Source: Micromonospora sp. WMMD980
GTDB taxonomy: Bacteria > Actinomycetota > Actinomycetes > Mycobacteriales > Micromonosporaceae
Direction of reading: 5' to 3'
Assembly: GCF_029626035.1 (NCBI RefSeq)
Contig: NZ_JARUBE010000003.1
Coordinates: forward strand, 4,154,001-4,218,000
DNA length: 64,000 bases
The position numbers and the translations under genes are program-made. This document shows positions 2,362 to 45,556 of the stretch, piece by piece. Position 1 is the stretch's first letter. Every line of letters begins with the position of its first letter. Under the pieces are notes generated by a model. That model was not told where the DNA came from and searched no databases. It saw only the letters and a list, made by a program, of their open reading frames with translations.

Positions 2362-2484
2362 GACGCCATGATGCGACACCCCCGCCAGTCGCCCCGGCCG
2401 GGCGACCGGAACGGGTCCGGTGAGGTCGAATCGGCGGGTGGGCGGCACCCTAGCGTCGTAGGCGTAACCAGGAGGGAGCATCGG

Positions 2485-4594: not shown

Positions 4595-4702
4595 GGCCGG
4601 ACGCTAACCGAGCACCCCTACGGGAGGCGAGCGGATTCATCCGGGAGCGGCGCGGGGCCGACCCCTGATGTCCCGGCGGCCGGCGGCGGACAGGCTGAGG
4701 CA

Positions 4703-5296: not shown

Positions 5297-5315
5297 CAGG
5301 GGGCCCCTCCTTACA
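5260..5315. repeat. 56-bp interspersed repeat, copy 1
   Basis: Starts TGTTAAGCGGGGGCCCC and ends GTTAACAGGGGGCCCCTCC-TTACA. It lies between convergent genes and supplies the stop codons of both. Copies 2 and 3 are at 18797-18852 and 19307-19362. Confidence 0.85.
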
Positions 5316-6465: not shown

Positions 6466-6730
6466 GCCGACTCCTCCGCCGCGCGAGCCCACCAACCGGG
6501 GTGTCACCGGTATCAACGGCCGGGCAGGGGTGCGAAGACACGCGAAAGTCACTAATTAGACCGATTGGTTGATTGACGGACGCGATCGGCGGAAAACGCC
6601 GCGTCGATCCATGTTTCGTGCCGGGCCTCGTCCGGTCGCTCCGCTTCGCCATGCGGGCCGCTGGACTCGTCGGTAACGTCAGCCGCAGGGCCGGGCGTAC
6701 GCGGCCCCCGCTGGGAGCGGAGGTGCACCG

Positions 6731-8272: not shown

Positions 8273-8285
8273 CCAACCAGAGGTC

Positions 8286-9812: not shown

Positions 9813-9857
9813 CCGGCCGCCGCGCCGGCCCGCCTGGGCGGATGTCCGTCCGCGACC

Positions 9858-9986
9858 GCCTTTGGAGCTGATAGCACCGACGACTCGGTCGGTCATGCCG
9901 ACCGGCGGCGCTGTCGGGGACAGCGGGCACGGCCGGGCGCGGGCCCCGCCGGCCGGTGACATCACCAACGACTCAGCTCCAAAGGC
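9858..9986. repeat. 129-bp segment bounded by a perfect 14-bp inverted repeat
   Basis: GCCTTTGGAGCTGA at 9858-9871 is repeated exactly as TCAGCTCCAAAGGC at 9973-9986. It lies between gntP and the ABM gene. It could be a MITE-like remnant or an extended hairpin at the end of the gntKP transcript. No flanking target duplication is visible. The rest of the 9813-10085 gap shows nothing else. Confidence 0.6.
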
Positions 9987-10085
9987 AGTCCGAAGCGCAC
10001 TCTGGCGGAGACGCGGAGACGCGGACGAACCGGCGGGACCGGTCCGCGGAGCGCCGCCGCCGAGGTCGGGCGGCGGCGGTGGCGG

Positions 10086-10370
10086 TCAGGGGGCCTCGAC
10101 GCCGGCGATGCGGAACTTGTGCACCTCGGCGCCGAGGATCGCCGTGATCTGCTCGGCGTCCGGTCCGGAACTCCGGAACGCGAGCAACTGCTCGTCGGAC
10201 TCCCACCGCTCGTACACGTTGATCCGGCCCGGCTCGACCAGGTCGGCGCTGACCGCGAAGTCGACGCAGCCGGGCGCGGCGCGGGCGGCGCGGACGGCGT
10301 CGGCGCAGGACGCCAGATAGGCGTCCCGCCGGGCCGGATCGACGTAGAGGGTGCCGGCGACGATGAACAT
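10086..10370 (-). CDS. antibiotic biosynthesis monooxygenase (ABM) domain protein
   Basis: A 94-residue single ABM-fold protein: MFIVAGTLYVDPARRD, GCVDFAVSADLVEPGRINVYERWESDEQL and a C-terminal helix. Members are small dimeric cofactor-less monooxygenases, heme oxygenases or quinol monooxygenases; the specific substrate cannot be read. The ATG at 10370 begins the conserved first strand. It lies 35 bp downstream of the TipA-like regulator gene on the same strand and probably shares its transcript, which suggests a role in responding to a toxic aromatic or drug-like compound. That role is inference. Confidence 0.83.
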   Translation of the reverse strand: MFIVAGTLYVDPARRDAYLASCADAVRAARAAPGCVDFAVSADLVEPGRINVYERWESDEQLLAFRSSGPDAEQITAILGAEVHKFRIAGVEAP

Positions 10371-10405
10371 CCGGCCATCGTGCCAGGAGTGCCGGCGATG
10401 CCGGG

Positions 10406-11164
10406 TCAGGACCGGCTGATCGCGTTGGCGTGGATCGCCTCGTTCAGATAGGCGGCCATCCCCGGCCGGATCGCCTCGAAGTACGCGGTGAACCGGGGGT
10501 CCGCCACGTACATGTCGGCCAGCCCGGTGTGCATCTCCAGCGGGCAGTCGTACCACCACTCGGTGATGAGCCGGCGGTGCTCCTCGGCCAGCGCCATCGC
10601 CTCCGGCCCGTCGGCCGGCGCGCCCGAGTCCATCAGCGCGGCGAACCGCCGGCCCCAGTCCTCGTTCACCTCCTTGTTGCGCAGCCAGTCCTCCTTCGAG
10701 TAGCGACCGGCCCGCTCCTGCGACTGCCGGTACGCCTCGGTGTCGCCCCAGCGCCGCTCGACCTCCTCGGCGTGCTCGTCCGGGTCGACGTCCCCGAACA
10801 CCTCGAACCGCTCCTCCGGCGTCAGGTGGATCCCCAACTTCCTCGCCTCCATCGCGCGTTCGATCGCCGCCACCATCTCCTGGAGCTTGCCGATCCGCCC
10901 GGACAGCAGCTCGTGCTGCCGGTTCAGGTGCGCCACCGGGTCGGCGGCCGGGTCGTCCAGGATCTCGGCGATCTCGTCCAGCGGGAACCCCAGCTCGCGG
11001 TAGTAACGGATGAGCTGCAGGCGGTCCAGGTCCGCGTCGTCGTAGCGGCGGTAGCCCGCCGGCGTGCGTCCGCTGGGCCGCAACAGCCCGACCTCGTCGT
11101 AATGGTGGAGCGTGCGGACCGTCACCCGGGCCGCACGCGCCACCTGTCCCACCGTGTATGCCAT
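10406..11164 (-). CDS. MerR-family regulator with TipAS drug-binding domain
   Basis: A 252-residue protein with an N-terminal MerR winged helix (YTVGQVARAARVTVRTLHHYDEVGLL, residues 3-28, and SGRTPAGYRRYDDADLDRL), a coiled-coil linker (residues 80-110) and a C-terminal TipAS-type all-helical domain ending in MADMYVADPRF-like LADMYVADPRFTAYFE. TipA-type regulators bind thiopeptides and other multidrug ligands and activate their own promoter. Length matches TipAL. The ABM gene follows directly and is the likely co-regulated gene. ATG 11164 is preceded by GGGAGGGAACC. Confidence 0.9.
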   Translation of the reverse strand: MAYTVGQVARAARVTVRTLHHYDEVGLLRPSGRTPAGYRRYDDADLDRLQLIRYYRELGFPLDEIAEILDDPAADPVAHLNRQHELLSGRIGKLQEMVAAIERAMEARKLGIHLTPEERFEVFGDVDPDEHAEEVERRWGDTEAYRQSQERAGRYSKEDWLRNKEVNEDWGRRFAALMDSGAPADGPEAMALAEEHRRLITEWWYDCPLEMHTGLADMYVADPRFTAYFEAIRPGMAAYLNEAIHANAISRS

Positions 11165-11218
11165 GGTTCCCTCCCTTCCACGACCGAGGCTCCCGCCTCC
11201 CGCGGCGTGAGGGTCAAG

Positions 11219-11851
11219 TCAGGTGGTGATTCTCTCCTGCGCCGGAGCGGCGAAGGCGGCGTTCGCCGGGGTACGCACGGCGTGCACCAGGCCGGCGGCC
11301 GAGAGCAGCAGGAGCAGCGCCGCGCCGAGGTACATGGCCAACGCGCCCTGCTCGGCCTTGCGGCCGAACTCGCTGAAGCCGTACGAGGTGAGCAGCAGGC
11401 CGCGCAGCGTCTCGCCCTTGAACACGGTGTCCCGCTGGGCGCTGACGTCGGCGAGCTGCTTCTGCAGGTCGGCCAGGTTGGCGGCCTTCGCCTGCTCGGC
11501 CTGGGCCACCTGCTCGCCCAGCGCGGTCTGCGGCTCGCCGAGGTCGGCGTACGTCTTGCCGCCGGCGATCGACGTCAGGTGCAGGCCGATGAACTCGTTG
11601 GCGTAGCACTCGGCCTGCTTGCCGGTGGTGAGCTGCTGTCCGGCGTACTCGCGCAGGCAGGCCGACTTCTGCTCCTCGTCGGTGAGCTGTCCGGCCGGCT
11701 TGAAGCTGATGTGCTGGGCGGCGAGCTGGTCGTGCACGTAGTTGTTGGCGAAGTTGGCGTTCGTCGTCAGGACGACGCCGACGACGAGCAGCAGGACCGC
11801 GAGACCCAGTCCGCAGATGCTGAACAACAGGTCGAGTGTGCGTCGCTTCAT
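11219..11851 (-). CDS. two-helix membrane protein, unknown function
   Basis: A 210-residue protein with an N-terminal membrane helix (ICGLGLAVLLLVVGVVL), a long extracytoplasmic segment (about residues 30-165) with two cysteines (SACLREYAG and AECYANEF) and coiled-coil character (VAQAEQAKAANLADLQKQLADV), then a C-terminal helix (ALAMYLGAALLLLLSAAGLV). No enzyme motif is seen. The start is ATG 11851. The gene is followed by the TipA-like regulator on the same strand, 54 bp away, but there is no obvious functional link. Confidence 0.75.
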   Translation of the reverse strand: MKRRTLDLLFSICGLGLAVLLLVVGVVLTTNANFANNYVHDQLAAQHISFKPAGQLTDEEQKSACLREYAGQQLTTGKQAECYANEFIGLHLTSIAGGKTYADLGEPQTALGEQVAQAEQAKAANLADLQKQLADVSAQRDTVFKGETLRGLLLTSYGFSEFGRKAEQGALAMYLGAALLLLLSAAGLVHAVRTPANAAFAAPAQERITT

Positions 11852-11970
11852 CTCTGGCTCCCGGCTGGAGGGGATTGACGAGAACCATCGTGGCGGCGGC
11901 CGGGGTGCCCGGAGCAGGGTCGAACCCCCCGTCCCGGCCGGGACCTTCGACCCGTGTGGGCCCGGGCCGG

Positions 11971-14250
11971 TCAGCGGGTGGCGTCCGCGGCGGCCAGCGC
12001 GGGCAGCAGGTCGGGCAGGGCGGTCGGGCGGCCGTACCGCCAGCCCTGACCCTGCCGGCAGCCGATCGCGGTGACCGCGGCGTGCTGCGCGCCGGTCTCC
12101 ACCCCCTCCGCCACCACCGCCAGGTCGAACGCGCCGGCCAGCCGGTTGACCATCTCCACGGTGGCGTACGCGCGGGCGTCTCCGGCATCCAACCGGGACA
12201 CGAAGGACCTGTCGATCTTCAGCTCGGTGGCCGGGATCCGATGCAGGTAGCTCAGCGACGAGTAGCCGGTGCCGAAGTCGTCGATGGCGATGCGGATGCC
12301 GAGGTCACGCAGTTGCGCCAGCCGGTCGAGCACCGCCTCGCTGCCCTCGATCAACGCCGACTCGGTGAGTTCCAGCGTGAGCGCGCGGGGCGGCAGGCCC
12401 GCCGCGCCCATCGCGCCGGTGACGGTGGCGATCAGGTCGGGCCGGCACAGGTGGGCGGCGGCGATGTTGACCGCGACGGTCACCTCGGGCGCGTGCTCAC
12501 GCCAGGTCGCCGCCGCCCGGCACGCCTCGTGGATCACCCACCGGTCGATGGCCAGGATCAGCCCGGTCTCCTCGGCCAGCGGCAGGAACCGCGCCGGGGT
12601 GAGCACGCCGAGACGGGGATGCCGCCAGCGGACCAGCGCCTCGGCGCTGCGGACCGTGCCGGTGGCCAGGTCGACGATGGGCTGGAACTCCATCAGCAAC
12701 TGGCCCTCGTCGACCGCGCGGCGCAGGTCGGCGATCAGCTCGGCCCGGCTGACCGCCGACTCGCGCAGCTCCGGCGTGCACGTCCGCCAGGCGGACTTGC
12801 CGGACGCCTTCGCCGCGTACATCGCGATGTCGGCGTCGCGGAGCAGGTCGGTGTGCGAGCTGTGCTGCGGGCCGTACTCGGCGACGCCGATGCTGGCCGA
12901 CGGGTGGACGCCGAGGTCCTCCTCGCCGGGCAGCGGTTCGAGCGCGGCGAGCAGCCGGACCGCGAGCCGCTCGGGCGACACCGGGCGGTCCCCGGCGACC
13001 AGCACGGCGAACTCGTCGCCGCCGAGCCGGGCGATCATCCCGTCCGGGCCGATCGCGTCCCGCATGCGCTCCGCGGTGGTGGTGAGCAGGCGGTCCCCGG
13101 CGGCGTGCCCGAACCGGTCGTTGACCTGTTTGAAGCCGTCGAGGTCGAGCAGCACCACGGCGACCGGCCCGCCCTCGCGCAGGGCCCGGCGCAGCCGCCG
13201 GATGAAGGTCAGCCGGTTGGGCAGGCCGGTGAGCTGGTCGGAGTAGGCGAGTCGGCGCAGCCGGGCGACCAGCCGCAGGTTCTCGTTGGCGGCCAGACCC
13301 TGCCGCAGCGCGAGCACCCCGAGCAGCGCCATCATGCCGACGAAGACCAGGTGCGGGGTCTGCCCGGTGGGCCGCCGGGACAGCATCACCGCGACGATCG
13401 CGCCGCCCACCGGCAGGTACGGCAGCGCGACCCGCCACCACGGCGGCAGCGGCGACTCACCGGCGTCGTCGTCGGCGTCCCCGCCGCCCGGCGGCGGGTA
13501 GCGGGTGGCGAGGCCGACCAGCAGGTAGCTCAGCGGCCAGCAGACGTCGACCGGGTGCCCCGGGGCGTAGCTGCCGTGCGCGACGAGGGAGACGTAGACC
13601 GCGTCGGCGCCGGCCCGGATCGCCAGCCCGGCGCCGATCACGGTGAGCGCCCGCCACATGTGCCGGCCCGGCCCGGCGACCGCCACCAGGATGGTGAGCT
13701 GCATCAGGTCGAACATCGGGTAGAGCAGCCCGAACGTGCGCAGCGGGTCGGACAGGTCGGCGTCGGCCAGGTCGCGGAACACCACCACCCAGCCGACCGG
13801 GATGAGGGCCAACGCGACGATCACGCCGTCGAGCAGCGTGCGGGCCTGCCCGACCAGGCTGCGCGGGCCGGCCCGGGAGCACAGCAGCGCGGCGGTGCCG
13901 GTGACGATGCCGGCGGTGAAGAGGCCGCCGACCAGCGGCGTGTGCGGCAGGTCGATCCCGCCGAGCCGTTCCACGGTCCACACCGCCCGGCCCAGCGCGG
14001 CGAGCAGCATGGTGGCCGCGAGGAGCCCCCAGAACCGCCGCAGCGCGACCGGGTGCCGGCGGGCCGCGCCGACGCAGAGCACCGCCGACCAGCTCGACAC
14101 CGCCATCGCACCGAGGTCGCTGACCAGGGCCGCGCCGGGCAGCGCGGCGACGAGCCAGATCATCTCCCCGAGTACGACGACGGCGGCCGCGACGAGTCCG
14201 ACACGGCCGGCGAGCGGTTGACGGGCCGGCGCCGCGACGGCGAGGCTCAC
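11971..14250 (-). CDS. membrane GGDEF-EAL cyclic di-GMP protein
   Basis: A 759-residue protein. The first ~310 residues contain about nine membrane segments forming a sensory module. A GGDEF domain follows (LAYSDQLTGLPNR at about 325, active site RLGGDEFAVLV intact), then an EAL domain (SAEALVRWRHP, ELTESALIEG, IDDFGTGYSSLSYLHR, LKIDRSFV, VVAEGVET). Both catalytic signatures are intact, so it may both make and break c-di-GMP; a regulatory I-site RxxD is not obvious. The start is GTG 14250. The closing QGWRYGRP replaces the usual QGYLFSKP. c-di-GMP controls development in actinomycetes, but no partner lies nearby. Confidence 0.92.
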   Translation of the reverse strand: MSLAVAAPARQPLAGRVGLVAAAVVVLGEMIWLVAALPGAALVSDLGAMAVSSWSAVLCVGAARRHPVALRRFWGLLAATMLLAALGRAVWTVERLGGIDLPHTPLVGGLFTAGIVTGTAALLCSRAGPRSLVGQARTLLDGVIVALALIPVGWVVVFRDLADADLSDPLRTFGLLYPMFDLMQLTILVAVAGPGRHMWRALTVIGAGLAIRAGADAVYVSLVAHGSYAPGHPVDVCWPLSYLLVGLATRYPPPGGGDADDDAGESPLPPWWRVALPYLPVGGAIVAVMLSRRPTGQTPHLVFVGMMALLGVLALRQGLAANENLRLVARLRRLAYSDQLTGLPNRLTFIRRLRRALREGGPVAVVLLDLDGFKQVNDRFGHAAGDRLLTTTAERMRDAIGPDGMIARLGGDEFAVLVAGDRPVSPERLAVRLLAALEPLPGEEDLGVHPSASIGVAEYGPQHSSHTDLLRDADIAMYAAKASGKSAWRTCTPELRESAVSRAELIADLRRAVDEGQLLMEFQPIVDLATGTVRSAEALVRWRHPRLGVLTPARFLPLAEETGLILAIDRWVIHEACRAAATWREHAPEVTVAVNIAAAHLCRPDLIATVTGAMGAAGLPPRALTLELTESALIEGSEAVLDRLAQLRDLGIRIAIDDFGTGYSSLSYLHRIPATELKIDRSFVSRLDAGDARAYATVEMVNRLAGAFDLAVVAEGVETGAQHAAVTAIGCRQGQGWRYGRPTALPDLLPALAAADATR

Positions 14251-34370: not shown

Positions 34371-35617
34371 CCGCTCTCCTCCCGGGGCGCCGGCAGGGTG
34401 GCCCGGACCCGCCAGCGCTCCCCGTCCGGGCCGGCGTCGAGCCGCCCGCCGAGCAGCAGCACCCGTTCCCGCATGCCGTCCAGCCCGCGCCCGCCACCGG
34501 TCGCCCGGGCGCCGCCACGCACGGCGTTGACCAGCTCGATCTCCAACCCCTCCGGGGGTACGCCGACCCGCAGCGTCACCGGCCCCCGGCCGTGTCGGGC
34601 CGCGTTGGTCAGCCCCTCCTGCACGATGCGGTAGCCCTCGCGGGACACCACCGCGGGCAGCGCGTCCAGCGGACCGCCGACCCGGGAGTCGACCGCCAGC
34701 CCGGCGGCCCGGGCGGCGGTGACCAGCCCGTCCAGCCCGGCCAGGGTGGGTTGCGGCGCGGTGGGCGCCGGCCGCCGCCCGGCGTCGCCGTCGCGGAGCA
34801 GCCCGAGCACCTGGTCGAGGTCGTCCATGGCCCGCCTGCTGGTCTCCTCGATGGCCCGCAGCGCCCGCCTGGTGAACTCGGGGTCGGTGTCGAGCAACTC
34901 CCGCGCGGCCCCGGCCTGGAGCGTCGCCACGGTCAGCGCGTGTCCCACCGAGTCGTGCAGCTCCCGGGCCAGCCGGTTGCGCTCGGCCAGCCGCACGGCG
35001 CGGGCCTCCAGCGCGGCGATCCGCTCGGCCTGGGCCGGGCCGAGCAGCACCGGCGCCATCGAGGCGGCGAGCGCGCCCAGCCCGGCCACCGCGTAGCCGA
35101 GCGCGACGAGCACGACCATCCCGGCCAGCCCGGCCGGCACCGGGCGGGCCGGGTCGAGCGGGCCGAACCGCTCGCCCGGCCCGGCCCCGGTGTCGATCCC
35201 GGTCAACCCGACGAGGAACACGAGCGCCATCGGGAACGCGCTGATCGCGGCGAACAGCACCGCCGCGCCGGTGCCCAGGTGCATGGCGATCCAGAGCGCG
35301 GACCGCAGCCGGGTCTCCCGGTCGACGCGGTGACCCGGCAGCGGCTCCGGCAGGTCGACCGCGAGCAACGCCCGGGCGGCGGCGATCTCCAACGCCCGGC
35401 TGCCGGCCAGGAACACCGGCACCACGGCCAGCCCGGCGCCGACCAGCAGCAGCCCGAACCCGAGCGGCCGTGGCACCTCAGTGCTGGTCAGCAACTGCGC
35501 GAACGCGACGGCCAGCAGCACGTAGGGCAGCGCGAGCACGCCGCCGAGGAGCAGGAACACGGCACGTCGCCAGGTGCTGCCGCGCACCAGCGGCGCGAAC
35601 ACCACCCGGACCGTCAT
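34367..35617 (-). CDS. sensor histidine kinase, NarL/DesK-type
   Basis: A 416-residue kinase with about four to five N-terminal membrane helices and no large extracellular sensor loop, then the dimerisation/phospho-acceptor helix [18 protein letters not shown] (His about 232) and a C-terminal HATPase with NAARHGRG and [12 protein letters not shown]. It partners the response regulator encoded next with a 4-bp overlap. Such short-loop sensors detect membrane or envelope state; the stimulus is unknown. Start ATG 35617. Confidence 0.92.
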
Positions 35618-35677
35618 CCGGTCATTGTCCCGCCGCCACCGGCCGCGCGACTCCCCCGCGCCGGGGAGATCGGCCGA

Positions 35678-36175
35678 TCAGCGGTGCTCGCGCACGTAAC
35701 CCTGCGGGTCCTTGTCGCGGAACGGCAGGTCCCGGCCGTTCTTGTGCTCGCCGTAGAACGTCAGCCAGCGCGCCCCCAGCTCGGCCCGCAACTCCACGCT
35801 CGCGTGCCGGCGGAAGTCGGGCAGCGCCTCGTCCTCCTCCTCGGCCAGGTGCTCACTGTTCTCCTTGCGCGCCTCACCCACGGCCGCCCACCAGGCGTCC
35901 GAGCCGACCTCGTGCAGCTTGGCCTCGGCGATCGCGTCGCGGATCTTGTTGTGGTCGCCGATCGCGTCGGCGGTCTCGTCCTCGCCGTCGTCGCCGTGCT
36001 TCACCAGGTGCGGATAGAGGATCGCCTCCTCCGCCTCGGCGTGGATGTCCAGGTGCAGGGCGAGCGCCTCCCAGACCGCCAGCATCTCGGCCGGGTCGCG
36101 CGCGTCGTCGAGTCGGGCGAAGCCGCGCCGGAAGGCGGCGTGGTCGTCGAGGATCAGTGCGGTGATGTCGTCCAT
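35678..36175 (-). CDS. hemerythrin HHE-domain protein
   Basis: A 165-residue HHE cation-binding protein. Helical segments carry the iron ligands: DDHAAFRRGF (His), HLDIHAEAEEAILYPHL (His, Glu, His), GDHNKIRDA (His) and ENSEHLAEEEDEALPDF (His, Glu). Expected to bind a di-iron centre and O2, NO or act in iron/redox handling. The aldo/keto reductase gene ends 4 bp upstream on the same strand, so they are probably one operon. Confidence 0.9.
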   Translation of the reverse strand: MDDITALILDDHAAFRRGFARLDDARDPAEMLAVWEALALHLDIHAEAEEAILYPHLVKHGDDGEDETADAIGDHNKIRDAIAEAKLHEVGSDAWWAAVGEARKENSEHLAEEEDEALPDFRRHASVELRAELGARWLTFYGEHKNGRDLPFRDKDPQGYVREHR

Positions 36176-36179
36176 GCGG

Positions 36180-37151
36180 TCACTTCTTTCCCAGTCGGGC
36201 GCGGATCATCCGGGGCACCGCGGCCAGGCCGGTGACCGGCCGGAACGCGTGCGCGGCGGCGACCAGCGCGGCGTACTCGTCGTCGGTGAGGTCGATGTCG
36301 GCGGCGGCGGCGTTGCGTTCCATCTGCTCCACCCCGGACGCGCCGGGGATCGCCACCACGTTCGGGTGCCGCAGCACGTAGGCGAGCGCGATCTGGCTGG
36401 GCGTGGCGTCGTGCGCGTCGGCCACCTCGCGCAGGGTGGCGACCAGCTCGGTGCCGCGTGCCAGGTTCTCCGGCAGGAAGTACGGGTTGGCCCGGCGCAC
36501 CGCCCCGGCCGGCGGGTTGGTGGCGTCGTAGCGGCCGGAGAGGAACCCCTGCGCCAACGGGCTGTAGGCGATGACGATCCGGCCGGCCTGTTCCGCGTAC
36601 GGGATCAGATCGCCTTCGGGGCCGCGGTCGATCATGCTGTAGCGGACCTGGTTGCTCAGCACCCGGCGGCCCAGCGCGGCCTCGGCGAACCGCCACCGGC
36701 GCAGGTCGTAGTTGCTGACCCCGACCTCGCCGACCAGCCCGACGTCCTGCAACGAGCGCATGCCGCGCATGGTGGTGGTGTCGGCGACCACCGGGTTCGC
36801 CTGGTGCACCTGGTAGAGGTCGATGCCGTCGACGCCGAGCCGGGCCGCGGAGGCGACCGCCCGCTGCTGCACCACCGGGGCGACCGGGAGCAGCGGGAAG
36901 ATCTTGCTGGCCACCACCACCTTGCCCCGGTCGTCACCGAGCGCCGCGCCGAGGATCCGTTCGCTGCGGCCGAAGCCGTACAGCTCGGCGGTGTCGAAGA
37001 GGGTGACCCCGAGGTCGAGCGCCCGCCGCACGATCTCGGCCGCCCGGCGCTCGTAGTCGGGGCCGTAGCCCCACTCCCGGGAACCGAACTGCCACGTGCC
37101 GAGGCCGATCTTGGAGATGGGCTTGGGGGTGTCGAGCCGCACGAAACGCAT
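36180..37151 (-). CDS. aldo/keto reductase
   Basis: A 323-residue (beta/alpha)8 NADPH-dependent reductase. The catalytic tetrad is visible as Asp in LFDTAELYG (with Tyr), Lys in VVVASKIFP and His in DLYQVHQANP; the C-terminal NADP-binding segment is VVAIPGASGVEQMERNAAA. Substrate unknown. It lies directly upstream of the hemerythrin-like gene. Sixty-five bp away on the other strand begins a second aldo/keto reductase gene, which is the one interrupted by the island. Confidence 0.9.
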   Translation of the reverse strand: MRFVRLDTPKPISKIGLGTWQFGSREWGYGPDYERRAAEIVRRALDLGVTLFDTAELYGFGRSERILGAALGDDRGKVVVASKIFPLLPVAPVVQQRAVASAARLGVDGIDLYQVHQANPVVADTTTMRGMRSLQDVGLVGEVGVSNYDLRRWRFAEAALGRRVLSNQVRYSMIDRGPEGDLIPYAEQAGRIVIAYSPLAQGFLSGRYDATNPPAGAVRRANPYFLPENLARGTELVATLREVADAHDATPSQIALAYVLRHPNVVAIPGASGVEQMERNAAAADIDLTDDEYAALVAAAHAFRPVTGLAAVPRMIRARLGKK

Positions 37152-37216
37152 GTCGACGACGCTACCCGCGCCGGTGGCACCGCACGCCTGTTCGCCGGGC
37201 GCGGCAGAATGATCGG

Positions 37217-37255
37217 GTGGCCTACCTCGCCAGCGACGACCGTTACGACTCGATG
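37217..37255 (+). pseudogene. 5' fragment of a second aldo/keto reductase gene (YghZ-like)
   Basis: From GTG 37217 the frame reads VAYLASDDRYDSM, which is the family's usual opening (MTYLASxDRYDSMxYRRCGRSGL). Homology stops after codon 13: the next codons (His, Val, Ser, Val, Glu) do not belong, and the frame hits TGA at 37295. The rest of the gene resumes at about 41552, 4.3 kb away. The gene was clearly interrupted by the DNA between. Confidence 0.8.
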
Positions 37256-37259
37256 CACG

Positions 37260-37367
37260 TTTCCGTGGAATGCCGCAAGTTTCGTCAGTTCTGGTGAGTA
37301 TACCTAGCGAGGGAGAGAGAACTAAGAACTAACCGGGGATGACGGAACTTCGTCAGTTCCACGGAAA
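37260..37367. repeat. compound inverted and direct repeats at the left island end
   Basis: TTTCCGTGGAA (37260-37270) recurs inverted as TTCCACGGAAA (37357-37367), and TTCGTCAGTTC is directly repeated at 37281-37291 and 37349-37359. The arrangement starts within a few bases of the point where reductase homology stops, as expected for a recombinase site. The rest of the stretch to 37567 contains only a GC-rich stem-loop near 37455-37510. Confidence 0.6.
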
Positions 37368-37567
37368 ACCATCACTCGCTTTTGCCACGCCTCTGCCCCG
37401 GCGCTGCCCCCGGCGTCGTTCAGCGGCGGCACCCGCTCACCCGGCGCGTGTAAACAGGCCCGCCCCAGGTCGTCCCTCACGGGGGAAGGAGACGGCCCCA
37501 GGGCGGGCGGCTCAGGTGGCGCGGGTCGGTGTCAACGTGGCGCGAGGCTGGGTGCCATGCTGGCGGT

Positions 37568-37822
37568 ATGAGCGAGCTAACCCGGGAAGAGCTGCTTACG
37601 CTGCTTCAACTGGTGGTGCGACTTCAAGGTGAGGTGATGCTGAAGCTTCTGGGGGACGGGTCCGTCCGCCACCTCGCCAACTCCTTTGACGGCTTCGACG
37701 AGCTGCCGTCGGCGGAATCGGACTCTGCCCGGTTGATTCAGGGGCTAGAGCGCTTGGGCCCCCGCTTGCGGCTGGCGCTGGGGGAGATCGTGCACCCCGA
37801 CGAGGCCCGGCCGCTGACGTGA
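37568..37822 (+). CDS. small hypothetical protein of the island
   Basis: An 84-residue, acidic, helical protein (MSELTREELLTLLQLVVRLQ, then ERLGPRLRLALGEIVHPDEA). Codon use is plausible but less GC-biased than in the flanks (for example CTTACGCTGCTTCAA). No family recognised. The ribosome-binding site is weak. It is the first gene in the island. Confidence 0.5.
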   Translation: MSELTREELLTLLQLVVRLQGEVMLKLLGDGSVRHLANSFDGFDELPSAESDSARLIQGLERLGPRLRLALGEIVHPDEARPLT

Positions 37823-37849
37823 CCGAGCCTCGCTGCGCGCTAGCGGGGG

Positions 37850-38425
37850 TTACCGCTGGCGAAGTCCTCCGCCCCCGCCCGAGGCGGACAGGGTCACGCA
37901 GGCGTAGTGGCTGGCGGTCACCTTGGCCGTGTTCCCGTTGGACGAGACATAGTAGTAGGCGAAGCCGATCGTGTCCACGCAGTACTTCACGGTGCTGGTG
38001 GCGGGCCACCGCACGCCGTAGCTCGGGCCGGTCCGGTCGCAACTGGTGATCGGACCGGTTGCGCCCGTGCCGGAGTTGCTGCCGGTCTTGACGATCGATC
38101 CGCCGTTGTCGCGGATCTTCCACTCCAGGTTGAGCTTCCGGTACGCCCGGTTGCTGGTCGCCCACCCGCTCGACAGGCCGGTCGTGTAGACCGTGGCGTC
38201 GCAGATCTTCACGCCGCTCTGGACGGCGCAGATGGGGGTGCCCTGGTAGATCGTGCCGCGCACGTTGCCAGCGGCGGGCGGCGGCCAGGTGGAGAACGAC
38301 GACGGCTTGACGGCGGCCCCGGCCGATCCGGTCATCAGCGCCAGTGCCGCGATGCAGACGGCCATCCCGGTGACGGCGGCCCGCATCAGTCGCGCGAAGG
38401 TGCGGGGTGTGCTGCAGGGGTGCAT
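37850..38425 (-). CDS. secreted protein of unknown function
   Basis: A 191-residue protein with a signal peptide (LMRAAVTGMAVCIAALALMTG, cleavage near AGAAV at about 38) and a mature beta-rich region with six cysteines (for example ICAVQSGVKICDATVY and SHYACVTLSA), likely disulfide-bonded. It ends in a Gly-rich tail. Unrecognised. AAGGGC lies before ATG 38425. It is intact, unlike most longer genes of the island. Confidence 0.65.
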   Translation of the reverse strand: MHPCSTPRTFARLMRAAVTGMAVCIAALALMTGSAGAAVKPSSFSTWPPPAAGNVRGTIYQGTPICAVQSGVKICDATVYTTGLSSGWATSNRAYRKLNLEWKIRDNGGSIVKTGSNSGTGATGPITSCDRTGPSYGVRWPATSTVKYCVDTIGFAYYYVSSNGNTAKVTASHYACVTLSASGGGGGLRQR

Positions 38426-38581
38426 AGAAAGCCCTTCTGTGCTCTCGCTGCGGATGGGGGATTCCTTATTCGCGTTGCGTGCTGGTAGGGCCTAAGGCGT
38501 GTGCGGCAAGGTCGTCTCCGTCCGATAGCGGGGGCCGGTTCGGCGTGCGGCCGGCGGACGGGAACGGCAGCATCGACGAGA

Positions 38582-38818
38582 TCACCACCGGCCCCCGTTC
38601 GCGCGGAACGTCTGGGCCGGCGTCAGGTTGCCGACCCGGCCCGGGGCCATCACGGGAAGATCGTCGGCCGGCTCGGTGGCCGTCGGGTAGCCATGGCTCG
38701 GGACAGTCATGGTCGGGAAGACCTCAGTCGGAGCGGTAGCCCACGCCGGGCGCTGCGGTACCGGGCGCGGGCCGGGCTTCGGCGAATCGGGGTCACAGCG
38801 CCACAACCGGAGTCGCAT
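38582..38818 (-). CDS. small hypothetical protein divergent from the XRE regulator
   Basis: A 78-residue Pro-rich protein (MRLRLWRCDPDSPKPGPRP...) with no recognised domain. Support comes from AAGGAG nine bases before ATG 38818 and its position divergent from the XRE gene, as small proteins often are in actinomycete islands. The 38426-38581 gap beyond it holds nothing obvious. Confidence 0.5.
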   Translation of the reverse strand: MRLRLWRCDPDSPKPGPRPVPQRPAWATAPTEVFPTMTVPSHGYPTATEPADDLPVMAPGRVGNLTPAQTFRANGGRW

Positions 38819-38949
38819 GGTGGTGTCTCCTTCGCGGTGGCCTTATGTGGGGCCGCTCCGCTGACCCTCGGAGCGGCCCCGATACGTACACGATCGCCGG
38901 GCTACTCACCTCCACCGGCCGCGCCGTCTACAGAGCACCTGCCGGAGGG

Positions 38950-38979
38950 TTGCCGTCCAAACACACTCCGTAAGACAAT
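38950..38979 (+). promoter_or_regulatory. possible promoter of the XRE-DUF397 pair
   Basis: TTGCCG (38950-38955) and GACAAT (38974-38979) are separated by 18 bp, giving a start about 35 bp before the ATG at 39020. Found by eye; weak -35. Confidence 0.3.
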
Positions 38980-39019
38980 GTCTTTCGGGCATCTGGTTTG
39001 GGACGGAATTGAGCCCGCA

Positions 39020-39788
39020 ATGAATCACTCGTTCGTCGCAGCGACGACCGAGACAGGGCAGATACCCGAAAGCCTCGCAGCTCAGCTCGCCGTAGACCCG
39101 AAGACGGTCGCCCGCTGGGCAAACCCAGGACACATCCCGCAGAGTCGGCACCGCGCGAAGGTCGCTCAGGCTTTGGGGCGGGAGGTTCCCGACCTCTGGC
39201 CGGATGTCCAGAAGCGACGCGAGTCGGTGTGGTTCCGGCCATGGACCGAGCACGAACGCGACGCGCTCACCCTGCGGTGGTTCGAGCTGGCATGGGTACC
39301 CGGCCTCCTTCAGACCGAGGCACACGCGCGGGCCACCCTCGCGGGCGAAACGCTGACCGGCGAGGGAGGTCGACCGGCTGGTCTCCGCGCGCATCGGCCG
39401 CCAGTCCGTCCTACGCCGCGAACGCTCGCCCCTGCTGACCGCCGTTATGGACCAGGGGGTCCTTCACCGGACGGCCGGCGGGGACCGGGCCATGATGCGG
39501 GCCCAGTGCGACTACCTCGCCGAGTGCGCCGAGCTGCCATCGGTGCAGATTCTCATCGTGCCGTCGTCCGTCGGCATGTACGCGGGCCTGGGTGGGGCGT
39601 TCATCCTGGCTGACCTGCCCGACGGTTCGCGGATGGCGCACGTAGACGGCCAGGCCAGCGCGCAAATCATCGACGCGAAGGCGGAAATTGCTACCCTTGA
39701 CCGGCGGTGGTCCCGTATCACTGGAGACGCGCTTCCGCGAGCGCTGTCACTAGAACTCATCAGGAAAGCGGCCGAAGCATGGACGTGA
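39020..39788 (+). pseudogene. XRE/DUF5753 family regulator, frameshifted
   Basis: Two frames join into a normal helix-turn-helix plus DUF5753 protein of about 255 residues. The first frame gives the DNA-binding part (LAAQLAVDPKTVARWANPGHIPQ) and the DUF5753 start (FELAWVPGLLQTEAHARATLAG). At the GGG run 39364-39366 one extra G shifts the frame; removing it restores EEVDRLVSARIGRQSVLRRE and the second frame runs to 39788 with TAGGDRAMMRAQCDYLAE and IPSSVGMYAGLGGAF-like motifs. DUF5753 regulators pair with DUF397 proteins, as here: the next start lies inside this gene's end. Confidence 0.75.
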
Positions 39789-39979
39789 CCGGCGCGCAGT
39801 GGTGCAAGAGCACGAAGAGCGGCAACAACGGCGGTGCGTGCGTGGAGGTCGCCGACAACCTTTCCGGTGTCGTCCTGGTTCGTGACACCAAGGACCGCGA
39901 GGGCGGAACGCTCGCCTTCCCGCCGTCCGTGTGGGCGAGCCTCGTCAGCATGGCGAAGGAGATCGGCCCGCTCGGCTGA
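39779..39979 (+). CDS. DUF397 domain protein
   Basis: A 66-residue DUF397 protein: WCKSTKSGNNGGACVEVADN, VLVRDTKDREGGTLAFPPSVWASLV. These small proteins are encoded beside XRE/DUF5753 regulators throughout actinomycetes (WhiJ-like systems) and probably modulate them. Start ATG 39779 overlaps the regulator's 3' end by 10 bp. A hairpin terminator follows at 39994-40019. The gene itself is intact. Confidence 0.88.
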   Translation: MDVTGAQWCKSTKSGNNGGACVEVADNLSGVVLVRDTKDREGGTLAFPPSVWASLVSMAKEIGPLG

Positions 39980-39993
39980 CTCACGTACGGCAG

Positions 39994-40019
39994 GAGCCCC
40001 GGCGATTCGCTCGGGGCTC
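39994..40019 (+). terminator. hairpin terminator after DUF397 gene
   Basis: GAGCCCCG pairs with CGGGGCTC around an internal GCG/CGC stem; no long T-run follows. Confidence 0.6.
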
Positions 40020-40028
40020 TCGCGTGGG

Positions 40029-40157
40029 TCAACGGTTGAGCAGCGACCGCCAGGCGGCGAAGCCGGCATCATCGGGCCGCAGCACTTCATAGCCGGCGGG
40101 CACCGGGCCGTCCGGCGTCAGGGTCATCCGGCGGACCAGGATTGACCCGTCCGGCAT
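40029..40157 (-). CDS. short conserved-looking ORF, possibly a gene fragment
   Basis: A 42-codon frame (MPDGSILVRRMTLTPDGPVP...) with protein-like composition, convergent with the DUF397 gene. A different frame just upstream begins MPYQEQPVAAARPDP at 40208, and a single-base indel near 40160 would join them, so this may be the 3' part of another frameshifted island gene. Confidence 0.3.
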   Translation of the reverse strand: MPDGSILVRRMTLTPDGPVPAGYEVLRPDDAGFAAWRSLLNR

Positions 40158-40254
40158 CCGGCGCGGGGATCGGGCCGGGCGGCGGCCACGGGTTGCTCTT
40201 GGTAGGGCATGGGCGGAACTCCGGGGTGTCGGGCGTATCGGTACGGTACCCAGC

Positions 40255-40365
40255 ATGGGTTCTCTCAGGCCGTGGCATGTTGCCACGCTTTGCTGTCTCG
40301 TCTCGTCCGCCGCGCTCATTGGCGGCGTGCTCTGGCTGCTGGCTAAGCGGAGGAACCGCGGATAG
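40255..40365 (+). CDS. 36-residue single-helix membrane protein
   Basis: ATG 40255 to TAG 40363-40365 encodes MGSLRPWHVATLCCLVSSAA followed by a hydrophobic run and a basic KRRNRG tail, a typical small membrane protein. Similar tiny proteins occur in actinomycete integrative elements. No good ribosome-binding site; recognition is by composition only. Confidence 0.4.
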   Translation: MGSLRPWHVATLCCLVSSAALIGGVLWLLAKRRNRG

Positions 40366-40407
40366 CCGGGGCCGACCGGTGACGTTCCGGCCGACCCCGG
40401 CGGGCGG

Positions 40408-40557
40408 TCAAGCGGTGGCCGGGGCGGCGGCCATGGCCGGGCGGATCGCGGCCAGGTGCCGGCGGGCAAGCTCCCGCATGTGGTCGTAGCTGCCGACGGC
40501 GGCGATGACGGTTACGGCCACCGTCCCGGCCAGCGAGGCGACGCGGCGGGCGTTCAC
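40408..40557 (-). pseudogene. DUF2637-like N-terminal fragment
   Basis: A 49-codon frame from GTG 40557, overlapping the stop of the HTH gene, reads as one membrane helix followed by SYDHMRELARRH, which resembles the start of DUF2637 (Spd-like) membrane proteins of actinomycete plasmids and integrative elements. Those proteins are much longer, so this would be a truncated remnant. Confidence 0.35.
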
Positions 40558-41180
40558 AGGTCACCGGCCAGCGCTTCGGAGCGGCAGGGGCCGCAGTTGC
40601 CGGCAGGGGATCCCCGGTGCCGCGCACAGTGCGCGGCGGTGGGGTTGGGGGAAGGGCTGCGCCGCGATGCGAGCGCTTGCCCTCTTGGTTATTGATGGGC
40701 AAGGACGGTTCGTAGGACGGGGGCGTCCGGCCGCTCGGTCGTGTACGTCCGGTCGCTCGGTCGCCTACGTCCGCCCCCGCCCGGTGCTGTAGCGGGAGGA
40801 CGCGGCCGTACGGTCGGTTATCCACAGGCTCCGGCGTCTCGGTCGGGCGGCCCGACTGCGGCTCCGCGAACGGGTCGAGCGCGCCGGGAAGCGGCCGACG
40901 GCGCTCCGTCGCCAGGTCATAGACAACGGGCCGGCGGTCCGCCGTGTGCCGCTGGTCGCCGCGCCGGATCAGGCCGAGCCGTAGCAGCTCGTCCAGGTCA
41001 CGCCGGGCCGACCGGACCGACCGGACCGACTTGCGGGCGTATTGCGCAAGACGCTCCTGAGACGGGAACGCCGCGCGGCCGTTGGCGTGCGCGTGGTTAG
41101 CGAGGCGATCAGCACCGCGAGGCACTGCGGCGGCACGTCGGGGCGTCACTGAGCGCCCACGACACAGCTTCGATGCTCAT
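40554..41180 (-). pseudogene. plasmid-type helix-turn-helix protein with three frameshifts
   Basis: From ATG 41180 the pieces MSIEAVSWALSDAP, DVPPQCLAVLIAS and NHAHANGRAAFPSQERLAQYARKSVRSVR lie in three successive frames and together match the start of the HTH proteins encoded in actinomycete integrative elements. Breaks are near 41138-41141 and 41100-41102 (one base missing each). The long middle frame is intact (LRLGLIRRGDQRHTADRRPVVYDLA). A third shift near 40631-40642 is needed to reach a Cys-rich end (HRGSPAGNCGPCRSEALAGDL) and its stop at 40554. Confidence 0.6.
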
Positions 41181-41466
41181 CAGGCAGCCGCCCCGGCGAA
41201 CACCTCGGCCAGGGCCACCACCGGCACACCGGCATACGCGGCGGCGACCGGTTCGGCCAGCGCCGAGCAGTCGCCAACTGTGACGACCAGCTCAGCGGCG
41301 TACACCGCCGCACGATCGGCGGCCATCGCGTCGAGCAGCCCGTAGCGTCCAGCCCGGCGGACGGGGTCGCGGTGGTCACGGCACAGCCGGCGGCTGTCAG
41401 CAGGGCGGCGGCGCTGTTCAGCGCGGCGGAACGGTCAGCGGCGGCGCACAGGCACCATGTGGTCAC
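41180..41466 (-). pseudogene. frameshifted hypothetical gene of the island
   Basis: GTG 41466 starts a frame reading VTTWCLCAAADRSAALNSAA; near 41345-41347 one base appears missing, and the protein continues in another frame as RYGLLDAMAADRAAVYAAEL and VVTVGDCSALAEPVAAAYAG up to a TGA that overlaps the ATG of the HTH gene (TGATG). The reconstructed ~96 residues look like an alpha/beta fold reminiscent of nucleoside-deoxyribosyltransferase-like proteins, but I do not recognise it with confidence. Confidence 0.45.
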
Positions 41467-41551
41467 TGGTCGGGGGCTCCGTCCCGATCTGCGGCCCCGG
41501 CGGTGGTAGGACACCCCGGGGCCGAACCGTCGGCGAGGCCGAAACTAGGTT

Positions 41552-42358
41552 CACTACGGCTTGCCGCCGGGCGCGGCGGAGGAGGCGTTCGGCCGGCTAC
41601 TCGCCACCGACCTCAAGGCCCACCGGGACGAGCTGGTGGTGTCCAGCAAGGCCGGCTACCTGATGTGGCCCGGCCCGTACGGCGAGTGGGGCTCCCGGAA
41701 GTACCTCATCTCGTCGCTGGACCAGTCGCAGCGCCGGCTGGGTCTGGACCACGTCGACATCTTCTACTCGCACCGGTTCGACCCGGACCCGCCGCTCGAG
41801 GAGACGATGGGCGCGCTGGACACCATCGTCCGCTCGGGGCGGGCGCTCTACGTCGGCATCTCGAACTACGACTCGGAGCAGACGCTGCGGGCCGCCGAAA
41901 TCCTCCGCGACCTGGGCACGCCGCTGCTGATCAACCAGCCGTCGTACTCGATGCTCAACCGCTGGACCGAGGCCGACGGGCTGCGGGACACGCTGGCGCG
42001 GGTCGGCGCCGGCTGCATCGCCTTCAGCCCGCTGGCCCAGGGTCTGCTCACCGACCGCTACCTGGGTGGCATCCCGGCCGACTCGCGCGTGCGCACCAGC
42101 GCCTTCCTCAACGAGAGCGACCTGGACGAGGCGACCATGGCGACCATCCGCGCGCTCGCCGAGGTGGCCCGCCGGCGGGGGCAGACGCTGGCGCAGCTCG
42201 CCCTGGTGTGGGCACTGCGGAACCCGCGGATGACCAGCCTGATCATCGGCGCGAGCAGCGTCGCCCAGTTGGCGGGAAACGTCGCCGCGCTGGACGGTCT
42301 GGACCTGGCCGGCGAGGACCTGGCCGAGATCGACCAGATTCTCGCCGGAGCGCGGTGA
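41552..42358 (+). pseudogene. 3' part of the interrupted aldo/keto reductase gene (YghZ-like)
   Basis: About 268 residues of an AKR14-like reductase from HYGLPPGAAEEAFGRLLATD to the stop at 42356. It retains the Lys (VVSSKAGYLMWPGPYG), His (VDIFYSHRFDPDPPLEETMG), LINQPSYSMLNRW, IAFSPLAQGLLTDRYL and the NADP-binding LIIGASSVAQL. It lacks the N-terminal strands with the catalytic Asp and part of the Tyr region, whose first 13 codons are at 37217. An internal start cannot yield an active enzyme. Family members reduce glyceraldehyde phosphate or methylglyoxal-like aldehydes. Confidence 0.8.
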
Positions 42359-42397
42359 CGGCCCCGCCGGTCGACCGCGTCGACCGGGCAGCCGGCC

Positions 42398-43318
42398 TCA
42401 CCAGATCCGGCGCCGTCCGGCACGGTGGTTGCGGACCCCGCAGGGCCGTCCGGGGGGCGGACCGCCAGCGCGCCGCAGGCGCAACCCGACCACGGCCGCG
42501 AACAGCACCGTGAGCCCGACGACCGCCGCGCCGACGAGCATCGGCCGGGAGAGCGGGCCGGTCTCGGTCACCGCCGCCACCGGCACCCCCGCCGGCTCGC
42601 CGCCGGTCGCCGACTCCGAGCGGGTACGCGGGGCCGCCGCGCTCGCCGCCGGTGTGCCCGACCGGGTGACCCGCGTCCCCGAACCGCCCTGGGCGGCCCG
42701 GAAGACCACGTCGGCGCAGGAGTAGTAGGTGTCCTGGGTGTTGGAGTTCTGCCAGATGACGTAGATGACGTGCCGGCCCGTGCGCCCGGTCGGCAACCGC
42801 CCCGGCATCTCGTACGCGCCGTCGCGGATCGGCGGGTCGGTGACCGCGAGGAACGGCTTGGTCTCCACGTCGGCCCAGGTCAGCCGCTGCGGCGGGGCGT
42901 ACGAGTCGGTGGTGACGTAGAACCGGAACGTGCCCCGGTGCGGGATCGTGGTGCGGTAGCGGAAGGTGTGCCGGGCACCGGCGGTGAGCGTGGTGGCCGG
43001 CCAGTCGGCCCGGGGCAGGTCCAGCCCCCGGTAGGCGGAGAGCCCGCCGCTGCACAGCTCGCCGTCCGGGATGCGCTCCCGGTCGCGCCCGTCGATCCGG
43101 GCCACCCGGATGGTGTCCCACTCGCGGACCGCCGCGCCGGCGGCGATCGCCGCCCGACAGGCGGGCGTCGCGGCCCGGCCGCCTTCCGGTCCGCACGCCG
43201 CTGCCCGGCTCATCGGGCTGGTCGGCGCCCCGTGGGCACCCGCCGGTGCGGCGGTGAGCAGCAGCATCGCGGCGACGGCGACGGCGGCGAACGCGGCGAA
43301 CGCGCGGCGTGTGCTCAT
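42398..43318 (-). CDS. AA10 lytic polysaccharide monooxygenase with C-terminal membrane anchor
   Basis: A 306-residue exported protein. The signal peptide ends at PAGA, exposing His1 of HGAPTSPMSRAAACG, the copper-binding N-terminus of AA10 LPMOs. The second His is in GARHTFRYRTT and the axial aromatic region is YVIWQNSNTQDTYYSCADVVF. AA10 enzymes oxidatively cleave chitin or cellulose. After the catalytic domain comes a low-complexity Ala/Thr/Arg linker and a membrane helix (LVGAAVVGLTVLFAAVVGL) with a basic tail, so it should stay on the cell surface. GGAGG lies eight bases before ATG 43318. Confidence 0.87.
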   Translation of the reverse strand: MSTRRAFAAFAAVAVAAMLLLTAAPAGAHGAPTSPMSRAAACGPEGGRAATPACRAAIAAGAAVREWDTIRVARIDGRDRERIPDGELCSGGLSAYRGLDLPRADWPATTLTAGARHTFRYRTTIPHRGTFRFYVTTDSYAPPQRLTWADVETKPFLAVTDPPIRDGAYEMPGRLPTGRTGRHVIYVIWQNSNTQDTYYSCADVVFRAAQGGSGTRVTRSGTPAASAAAPRTRSESATGGEPAGVPVAAVTETGPLSRPMLVGAAVVGLTVLFAAVVGLRLRRAGGPPPGRPCGVRNHRAGRRRIW

Positions 43319-43480
43319 GTGATCGACCTCCCGCGCACTGGTACGTGCCGAAGGCGGCAAAGGTTCGATGCCGCCGGTGCCACGACCGGTCAGGCTCGGT
43401 CGGCCGAACGGAAGACCGGGGCGGCGGGGCGACCGGAGTGGGCCCTACAGTGACGGCACCCTGTGATCAAGGAGCGCGCC

Positions 43481-45556
43481 TTGCCCGAGCCGGCACAGCC
43501 TTCCGAGCCCCCCCGCATCCCCCCGGCGGACGGGTCCCCGCCCGGTGAGATCCCGCCCGGCGCCCGGCCGTACCTGCTGGTGCTGCCCACGACGGAGGGC
43601 GCGCCGCCGCCGGTGGCGTGGCCCGGCGCGGCGGGTGAGCCGGCCTGGGCCATCCCGGTCAGCGTGCCGCCCGGCACGCTGGGCTACGCGCTGTTCGTGC
43701 CGCTGGTCCCACCGGTCCCGGCCGGCGTGCCGGCGCAGCCGTCCGCGCCGGCCGTCGAGTCCCGGCCGGACCAGCGCTCCGCCGGGGCCCCCGCACCGGG
43801 CAGCGCGGCCGGGCCCGTGCAGTCCACCCCGGCACCGCCCGGTCCACAAGCCACCCCGGCGCCGCCGAACCCGCATGGCCCCCCGGCGCCCTCCGGTCCG
43901 CAGGCGGCCCCGCCAGTGGCCGGTCAAACCGCCCCGGCGCCGTCCGGCGCAACGCTGCCGCCGGGGACCGGGCCGGCGTACCAGGACGTCCGGCCCTGGG
44001 CCAACTACCCGCCACCGCCGGGCTGGGCCCCCCGACCGCCGAAGCCCCGCACCTCCTTCCTCGGCGCGACGTGGCCCGGGCCGAAACCGGCCACCGGCCG
44101 GGCGGTGCCGCTGGCGGTGCTGGCCGGGGCGCTCGGCAGCGCGGTCTTCGTGCCGCTGGGCCGCGTCGGCGTCGGCTGGTTCCTCGGCTGGCTCACGCTC
44201 ACGCTCGGGGTGCTGCTGGCGGTCCGCACCCGGACCGCCGAGCTGCCCCGCGCCGACCGGCTGATCCGGGCCGGCTGGGCGGCGGCGGCCCTGGCGCTGC
44301 TCGCCGTGCCGGCGTTCCGCAACGCCTGGTGGCTGGTGACGTTCTGCGTGCTCGGCGCGCTGGGCTGCGCCACCCTGGCGATCGTCGGCGGCCGGCTGGT
44401 CCGCTCCATCCTGTTCGGCCTGTTCGCCACGCCCTTCGCGGCGCTGCGCGGCCTGCCCTGGGTCCGCCGGCACGTCGCCGCCTCGCCGGAGGCCGGCGCG
44501 GTCCGCAAGGTCACCGTCTCGGTGGCCGCCACGCTGGCCGTGCTTGTCGTCTTCGGCAGCCTGCTCGCCTCGGCCGACGCGGCGTTCTCCGAGGCGGTGG
44601 GCGCGCTCGTGCCCGACGTCGACCTCGGCGTGGTGTTCCGGGGCCTGTTTCTGGCCGCGGTAGGCGGGCTGATCGCGGTCGCCGCGGTCTACACGCTCGC
44701 CGCCCCGCCCGAGCTGTCCACCGTGGACTGCACGAGCGAACGCCGGCTCAGCCTGCTGGAGTGGGCGCCGGCCATCGGGGCGCTGACCGTGCTCTTCGCC
44801 GGCTTCGTGGTGGTGCAGTTCACCACGCTCTTCGGCGGGCAGCGACACGTGCAGCGGGTCGCCGGGCTCAGCTACGCCGAGTACGCGCGCAGCGGCTTCT
44901 GGCAGCTGCTCTTCGTCACGCTGCTGACCGTGGCGGTGCTCGGCGGCGTGACCCGCTGGGCCGGCCGCGAGCGGCCGATCGAGCGCACGCTGCTGCGCGT
45001 GCTGCTCGGGCTGCTCAGCGCGCTGAGCGTGGTGATCGTGGTGTCCGCGCTGTCCCGGATGTGGACCTATCAGAAGGTCTACAGCTTCACCGGCGAGCGG
45101 ATCTTCGTGATGGCGTTCGAGATGCTGCTCGGCGCGGTCTTCCTGATGATCCTGGCCGCGGGCGTGCGGTGGCGGGGCCGGTGGATCCCGGGCACCACCG
45201 TGGCGCTGACCGTGGCGATGCTGCTCGGCCTGGCGCTGCTCAACCCGGAGGACTACGCCGCCCGGCGCAACACCCTCCGGTACGAGCAGACCGGCAAGAT
45301 CGACGCCTGGTACCTGCGCGCGCTCTCCGCCGACGCCACACCGGCGCTCACCAAGCTCCCCGACCCGGTGCGTCGCTGCACGTTGAGCTGGATCGCCGAC
45401 GAACTCGCCGAGCCCGACCCCTGGTACGCCTGGAACCTGGGCCGGCACCGGGCCCGCCAGGCCCTCGACCGGGTCGGCCCGGGCGCGGTCGGCGGCCCGA
45501 AGGACTGCCGCCGCGCGGACCAGTTCGACCTGCCGAAGACCCGGCGACCCCGCTGA
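43481..45556 (+). CDS. DUF4153/DUF4173 family membrane protein
   Basis: A 691-residue protein. The first ~195 residues are a Pro/Ala-rich cytoplasmic tail; the rest has about 12 membrane helices and the family hallmarks LSLLEWAPAIGALTVLFAGFVVVQFTTLFGG and LSYAEYARSGFWQLLFVTLLT. A ~90-residue soluble C-terminus (YEQTGKIDAWYLRALSADA) follows. Function unknown. TTG 43481 is preferred because AAGGAG lies exactly six bases upstream; GTG 43463 is the longer alternative. Confidence 0.82.
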   Translation: MPEPAQPSEPPRIPPADGSPPGEIPPGARPYLLVLPTTEGAPPPVAWPGAAGEPAWAIPVSVPPGTLGYALFVPLVPPVPAGVPAQPSAPAVESRPDQRSAGAPAPGSAAGPVQSTPAPPGPQATPAPPNPHGPPAPSGPQAAPPVAGQTAPAPSGATLPPGTGPAYQDVRPWANYPPPPGWAPRPPKPRTSFLGATWPGPKPATGRAVPLAVLAGALGSAVFVPLGRVGVGWFLGWLTLTLGVLLAVRTRTAELPRADRLIRAGWAAAALALLAVPAFRNAWWLVTFCVLGALGCATLAIVGGRLVRSILFGLFATPFAALRGLPWVRRHVAASPEAGAVRKVTVSVAATLAVLVVFGSLLASADAAFSEAVGALVPDVDLGVVFRGLFLAAVGGLIAVAAVYTLAAPPELSTVDCTSERRLSLLEWAPAIGALTVLFAGFVVVQFTTLFGGQRHVQRVAGLSYAEYARSGFWQLLFVTLLTVAVLGGVTRWAGRERPIERTLLRVLLGLLSALSVVIVVSALSRMWTYQKVYSFTGERIFVMAFEMLLGAVFLMILAAGVRWRGRWIPGTTVALTVAMLLGLALLNPEDYAARRNTLRYEQTGKIDAWYLRALSADATPALTKLPDPVRRCTLSWIADELAEPDPWYAWNLGRHRARQALDRVGPGAVGGPKDCRRADQFDLPKTRRPR

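Follow-up and report, generated by a model that had tools for sequence, protein, structure and literature searches.

A YghZ/AKR14A-type reductase gene split by a probable integrative-element remnant in Micromonospora sp. WMMD980

The split reductase gene and its orthologs

The window analysed here is a stretch of 64,000 nucleotides from Micromonospora sp. WMMD980 (contig NZ_JARUBE010000003.1, positions 4,154,001 to 4,218,000), and all coordinates are counted from its first letter. A YghZ/AKR14A-type reductase gene is present in two parts, 37217-37258 and 41553-42358, which are separated by ~4.29 kb of foreign DNA. The features of the locus, several of which are defined by comparison with an element in genome G042 of the same genus, are as follows.

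37217..37258, + strand: N-terminal fragment of the reductase, 14 codons with a GTG start (translation and blastn against relatives)
37256..37258, + strand: CAC at the left junction, found again at 41552-41554 at the right junction (3 bp, weak)
37259..41551, no strand: probable remnant of an inserted element, ~4.29 kb (blastn against orthologous loci; uninterrupted gene in 143 genus genomes)
37259..37369, no strand: left end of the insert, an imperfect inverted repeat (arms 37260-37299 and 37328-37367) forming a strong hairpin
37568..37822, + strand: g97, a small cargo gene, open (ORF listed from 37529), protein ~96% identical to that of G042
37850..38425, - strand: gene of a 191-aa protein, open, whose start resembles a signal peptide by eye; 95% identity to the G042 protein
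39020..39788, + strand: XRE-type regulator with DUF5753, frameshifted inside DUF5753
39779..39979, + strand: DUF397 protein, open
40408..40557, - strand: 5' stub of a DUF2637 gene, the remainder absent relative to G042 (homology to the G042 gene)
40563..41180, - strand: HTH_36 replication-initiator pseudogene, three matching pieces in two frames
41180..41466, - strand: counterpart of the last gene (95 aa) in the G042 element, reduced to a remnant in which 27 residues align as protein (5' limit approximate)
41553..42358, + strand: remaining C-terminal part of the reductase, open as far as its stop codon at 42356-42358 (translation, profile match and relatives)

A comparison of positions 35500-44000 with 19 orthologous loci (L002-L020, from 19 of 24 other genomes of the genus) by blastn reveals that the right-hand match begins at 41553 or 41554 in every locus, and that the left-hand match extends to 37246-37258 in six of them (L002-L006 and L010). 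In L002 (genome G018), the left match ends at 37258 with 95.3% identity and the right match begins at 41553. The neighbouring divergent reductase gene (36180-37151) is matched in 13 of the 19 loci. The gene translates across the breakpoint in all 19, so the proposal of a preceding sequence-only reading that both parts belong to a single reductase is borne out, and the alignment to related genomes that it suggested yields an intact gene without the insert at this locus in each relative. The 14 codons from the GTG at 37217 read V-A-Y-L-A-S-D-D-R-Y-D-S-M-H; the start given in that reading is correct, whereas the 13 codons that it placed at 37217-37255 become 14, ending at 37258. The downstream part is likewise confirmed, with homology starting at 41553 rather than 41552.

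The intact reductase protein was additionally searched against 160 genus genomes, WMMD980 included, at a threshold of E<=1e-60. Matches are obtained in 145 genomes, the remaining 15 being without one, and among the matches listed the alignment starts from residue 1 or 2 in 143 genomes. The WMMD980 genome matches over residues 65-328 only, and G001 has a weaker match (1.4e-110). No second break in the gene is seen across the 160 genomes among the matches listed, WMMD980 standing alone, and the reductase gene as a recurrent insertion site was rejected for want of another broken copy in this set.

The breakpoints were taken directly from the flanking sequences, and the spacing of the ACTAC repeat described below was computed separately. 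The left junction of the insert is ATGCAC|GTTTCC and the right one GGTTC|ACTACGG, and the uninterrupted targets in G018 and G089 read ATGCACTACCGG on the left and AACAACTACGG on the right. Relative to the nearest relatives, 153 bp are absent, which correspond to 51 codons (residues 15-65; about 50 had been estimated) and leave the reading frame intact when the insert is disregarded. The missing stretch is flanked by a 5-bp direct repeat, ACTAC, that is native to the reductase gene and whose copies lie 153 bp apart; we estimate that five bases would agree by chance at any one register in ~1 of 1000 cases. The sequence CACTAC is common to the right junction of the window and the left target of the relatives. 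The CAC at both junctions is a possible, weak sign of a recombination core or of a short target duplication. Two events, a deletion between the ACTAC repeats and an insertion flanked by CAC, would account for the junctions, whichever came first. The earlier claim that the insertion was coupled to the deletion is therefore not upheld, since a separate deletion via the ACTAC repeat, before or after the insertion, fits equally well.

Six changes in the remnant fall at columns that are invariant in nine relatives. Treated in the same way, each relative has 0-3 such changes versus the remaining eight, except for the most distant one, G021, with 5; the neighbouring reductase has 2 (0-5 in the relatives). 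The dN/dS of the remnant versus the relatives is 0.15-0.31, within the range of 0.12-0.32 found among the relatives, so it is the unique changes by themselves that point to relaxed selection. The remnant scores 335 bits against NF007388 and fails the cut-off of 448 bits, which an intact ortholog (P0002) passes with 471. This ortholog aligns nearly full-length with the YghZ/AKR14A1 structures PDB 3n6q and 4aub; compared with these, the window copy is split and lacks residues 15-65. The missing stretch takes in the first barrel strands. It also presumably includes the catalytic Asp, to judge by its motif. On these sequence grounds the reductase is most likely dead, through loss of the first barrel strands and presumably of the catalytic Asp; the unique changes in the remnant lend mild support to lost function, for which the missing fold core would be the stronger argument.

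The insert and a related element in genome G042

The insert spans 37259-41551, and its measured ~4.29 kb agrees with the ~4.3 kb first proposed, as do its contents: an XRE/DUF5753 gene, a DUF397 gene, an HTH_36 gene and a DUF2637 stub were recovered where XRE/DUF397, plasmid-type HTH and DUF2637-like genes had been described. Nor was a surviving integrase found, again as described: of 12 serine recombinases (that of G042 included), none matches the insert by tblastn with an E value better than 0.052, and the insert ORFs scanned with Pfam contain no integrase domain. No FtsK match of the kind that a TraB translocase would give is present among the insert ORFs scanned or among ten ORFs of the G042 element. 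The insert has no blastn match in plasmid or phage collections, and all 151 of 151 genomes match it, mostly via the common XRE/DUF5753-DUF397 stretch, which is uninformative about the element. A tRNA target was also considered and rejected: the tRNA-Val of 93 nt that ARAGORN calls at 41344-41436 falls within what is left of the 95-aa gene, reaches the gathering score of no Rfam model and is probably spurious.

A search for a related element with an integrase, which had been suggested as a check, identifies an element of ~11 kb in G042 (locus L051, about 2049-13147), and the window insert is collinear with its right part. The blocks 37452-38481, 38496-38645, 38712-39896 and 40465-41446 match L051 with 93, 86, 71 and 70% identity, respectively, their order and orientation being unchanged. 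Order and orientation are shared for g97, the 191-aa protein, XRE/DUF397, DUF2637, HTH_36 and the 95-aa gene. The right ends are also alike, in that the last (95-aa) gene is followed by some 75-95 bp up to the host gene in both, the distance in G042 being about 75-80 bp. Both sit inside a protein-coding gene, the G042 element splitting a Mg_chelatase gene that we take to be of the ComM type. This gene is uninterrupted in all five genomes compared (G000, which is WMMD980, G089, G018, G157 and G081), and the matches of these genomes to the two G042 flanks overlap by 11-15 bp, compared with CAC only as the sequence shared by the junctions in the window.

The G042 element differs in its host gene, in ~6 kb more on the left and in an intact large serine integrase of 500 aa with which it starts (Resolvase, Recombinase and Zn_ribbon_recom domains; phrog_95, E 2e-106), and its scanned genes are open. 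The window copy has neither the integrase nor the part of the element left of the cargo block, and a 61-aa gene, most of the DUF2637 gene and the neighbour of the latter are also gone. In this copy the XRE gene matches the G042 homolog in two frames, and the G042 homolog of the HTH_36 initiator matches phrog_1032 (E 3e-18). The two cargo genes, g97 and that of the 191-aa protein, are 93% identical to their G042 counterparts and the rest is about 70% identical, which indicates that the element is a mosaic. G042-like integrases (E<=1e-60) occur in 10 of 160 genus genomes, WMMD980 not being one of them, and 4 of 160 carry a gene that belongs to the left part of the G042 element.

At the left end of the insert, the first 193 bp (37259-37451) match neither the G042 element nor a second copy in the WMMD980 genome (described below), so this end may not be native. 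Its hairpin (37259-37369) has a z value of -4.2 as DNA; it may act as an origin or terminator, or form one arm of an attachment site. The outer arm has no exact match in genome_contigs and the inner arm none in viral_contigs, collections from which the window's own genome is possibly left out. Some match to the left 196 bp is found in all 300 of 300 family genomes at E<=1; among the matches listed, only WMMD980 matches over the full length and no other match covers query positions 1-80, and a multi-copy MITE at this end was rejected on these results.

The cargo pair and its other copies

The 191-aa protein could be assigned to no Pfam, PHROG or NCBIfam family, and PDB yields no convincing match to it; from its sequence it is probably secreted. 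It occurs in three of 160 genus genomes, namely WMMD980 (two full copies), G042 and G023, and is open in all four copies, with no integrase found beside three of them. Comparison of the four copies gives dN/dS values of 0.17-0.38 (191-aa gene) and 0.16-0.37 (g97); in the window copy, another residue replaces a cysteine that the other three share. This unclassified protein is the part of the element that might merit more work.

The second full copy in WMMD980 lies in an element of about 4.1 kb with the same cargo (L052, G000:C3:3124000-3142000, about 5338-9439, or about 5338-9570 at its widest), in which no integrase was detected (best match of 12 serine recombinases, E 0.026). This element adjoins an ABM gene, the last 132 bp of which are repeated at the far end with 90% identity. 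It differs from the window insert in site, its ends are unrelated to those of the insert, and the identity between the two is 82%. Additionally, a 51-residue partial match to the 191-aa protein (71%) is present, identical, on contigs C1, C3 and C4, and C1 carries a distant serine recombinase unlike that of G042. The small contigs C1, C4 and C2 and both ends of C3 (L092, L094, L095, L093 and L096) repeat each other at 100%, and C1 and C2 connect the C3 ends through a region holding small genes and a serine recombinase, which could reflect either an element that exists there in more than one state or an unresolved assembly graph.

The G023 copy of the 191-aa protein adjoins the start of an NHL-repeat gene. 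G042-type DNA or a remnant of it is found at the 5' end of this same gene in G023, G064 and G153 (L053, L097 and L098), which is perhaps a recurrent insertion site; in the G064 DNA, one ORF encodes a recombinase in which Resolvase and Recombinase domains are recognised.

Origin of the insert and comparison with known elements

The collinear homology links the insert, via G042, to a serine-integrase element, and the reading of an integrative-element remnant is supported at the level of sequence. The insert is probably a decayed remnant of such an element, a judgement that covers the remnant reading as such and overlaps with entry by a route other than an integrase. In the proposed history, a small element of the serine-integrase kind, related to that of G042, would have entered codon 14 of the reductase gene in the WMMD980 lineage, would since have lost its integrase side and would now be decaying; the 153 bp between the ACTAC repeats would have been lost before, during or after the insertion. 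That a serine integrase performed the insertion is somewhat favoured. The ends share CAC only, with no clear long att repeat left, and specificity for the reductase gene is unsupported because no other break was seen in the 160-genome set among the matches listed.

These same observations, together with the failure to find a serine integrase in the insert and with a left end unrelated to the other copies, would also suit the entry of an integrase-less fragment by illegitimate recombination or a transposase that simultaneously replaced the 153 bp. We consider this unlikely, though the strongest of the alternatives, since the layout of the right end agrees with that in G042 as far as the host gene, and since copies of ACTAC delimit the missing stretch, a feature that a random replacement would not need.

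A wider and rather improbable scenario is a narrow family of small serine-integrase elements that swaps integrases and hence host genes (Mg-chelatase, NHL-repeat, ABM and reductase genes), with integrase-less derivatives kept or moved in trans for the conserved cargo pair. It is more doubtful still that the remnant itself is not dead and can be moved in trans, as a cis-mobilisable or non-autonomous element. WMMD980 does hold two such copies without an integrase, the second with the same cargo and the 132-bp repeat of the ABM gene end; however, the two lie at different sites with unrelated ends, their 82% identity argues against recent spread, and WMMD980 has no G042-like integrase (E<=1e-60), though there is the distant serine recombinase on C1. 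The least credible explanation is an assembly artefact, which might be suspected from an incompletely resolved graph, three small contigs being 100% identical to end sequences of the chromosome contig; these repeats lie at contig ends, whereas the insert is internal to a 6.78-Mb contig and its best other match listed in WMMD980 is 82% over ~1 kb, so a repeat-driven misjoin is unlikely, and the left neighbour gene adjoins the reductase in 13 of 19 relatives.

The favoured history, in which an integrating element was inserted and then decayed, offers a clean example of a widely kept metabolic gene lost in one lineage, and the tie to the intact G042 relative reveals how the element formerly looked. 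The sequence-only reading had called integration into a protein-coding gene, without a surviving integrase, unusual for actinomycete elements. This is not supported, because the related G042 element also splits a gene and because both protein-coding insertions and decayed elements are in print, in passages of PMC3218068 and PMC9513070. According to part of PMC3218068, 19 of 144 AICEs have serine recombinases, some of them residing in protein-encoding genes and one disrupting an endonuclease gene. These share with the proposed element the kind of recombinase and the disruption of a host gene (e.g. Frankia Faln2929), and are counted there as AICEs by a gene content that was not found among the insert ORFs scanned. 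Membership of the AICEs is likewise unsupported by our scans, since no TraB was seen in the insert or among the scanned G042 genes, and in this the insert also differs from the DAICEs of Streptomyces as portrayed in sections of PMC9513070. Those sections assign 36 AICE sites to tRNA genes, 14 to protein-coding genes and one to an intergenic region, and describe decay via loss of the integrase or the replicase. The DAICEs there have lost the integrase and/or the replicase, as the insert appears to have done; some are recognised by occupied versus empty sites, and protein-coding sites occur among them too. Set beside these elements, the split reductase is a clear but ordinary gene loss of an already known kind.
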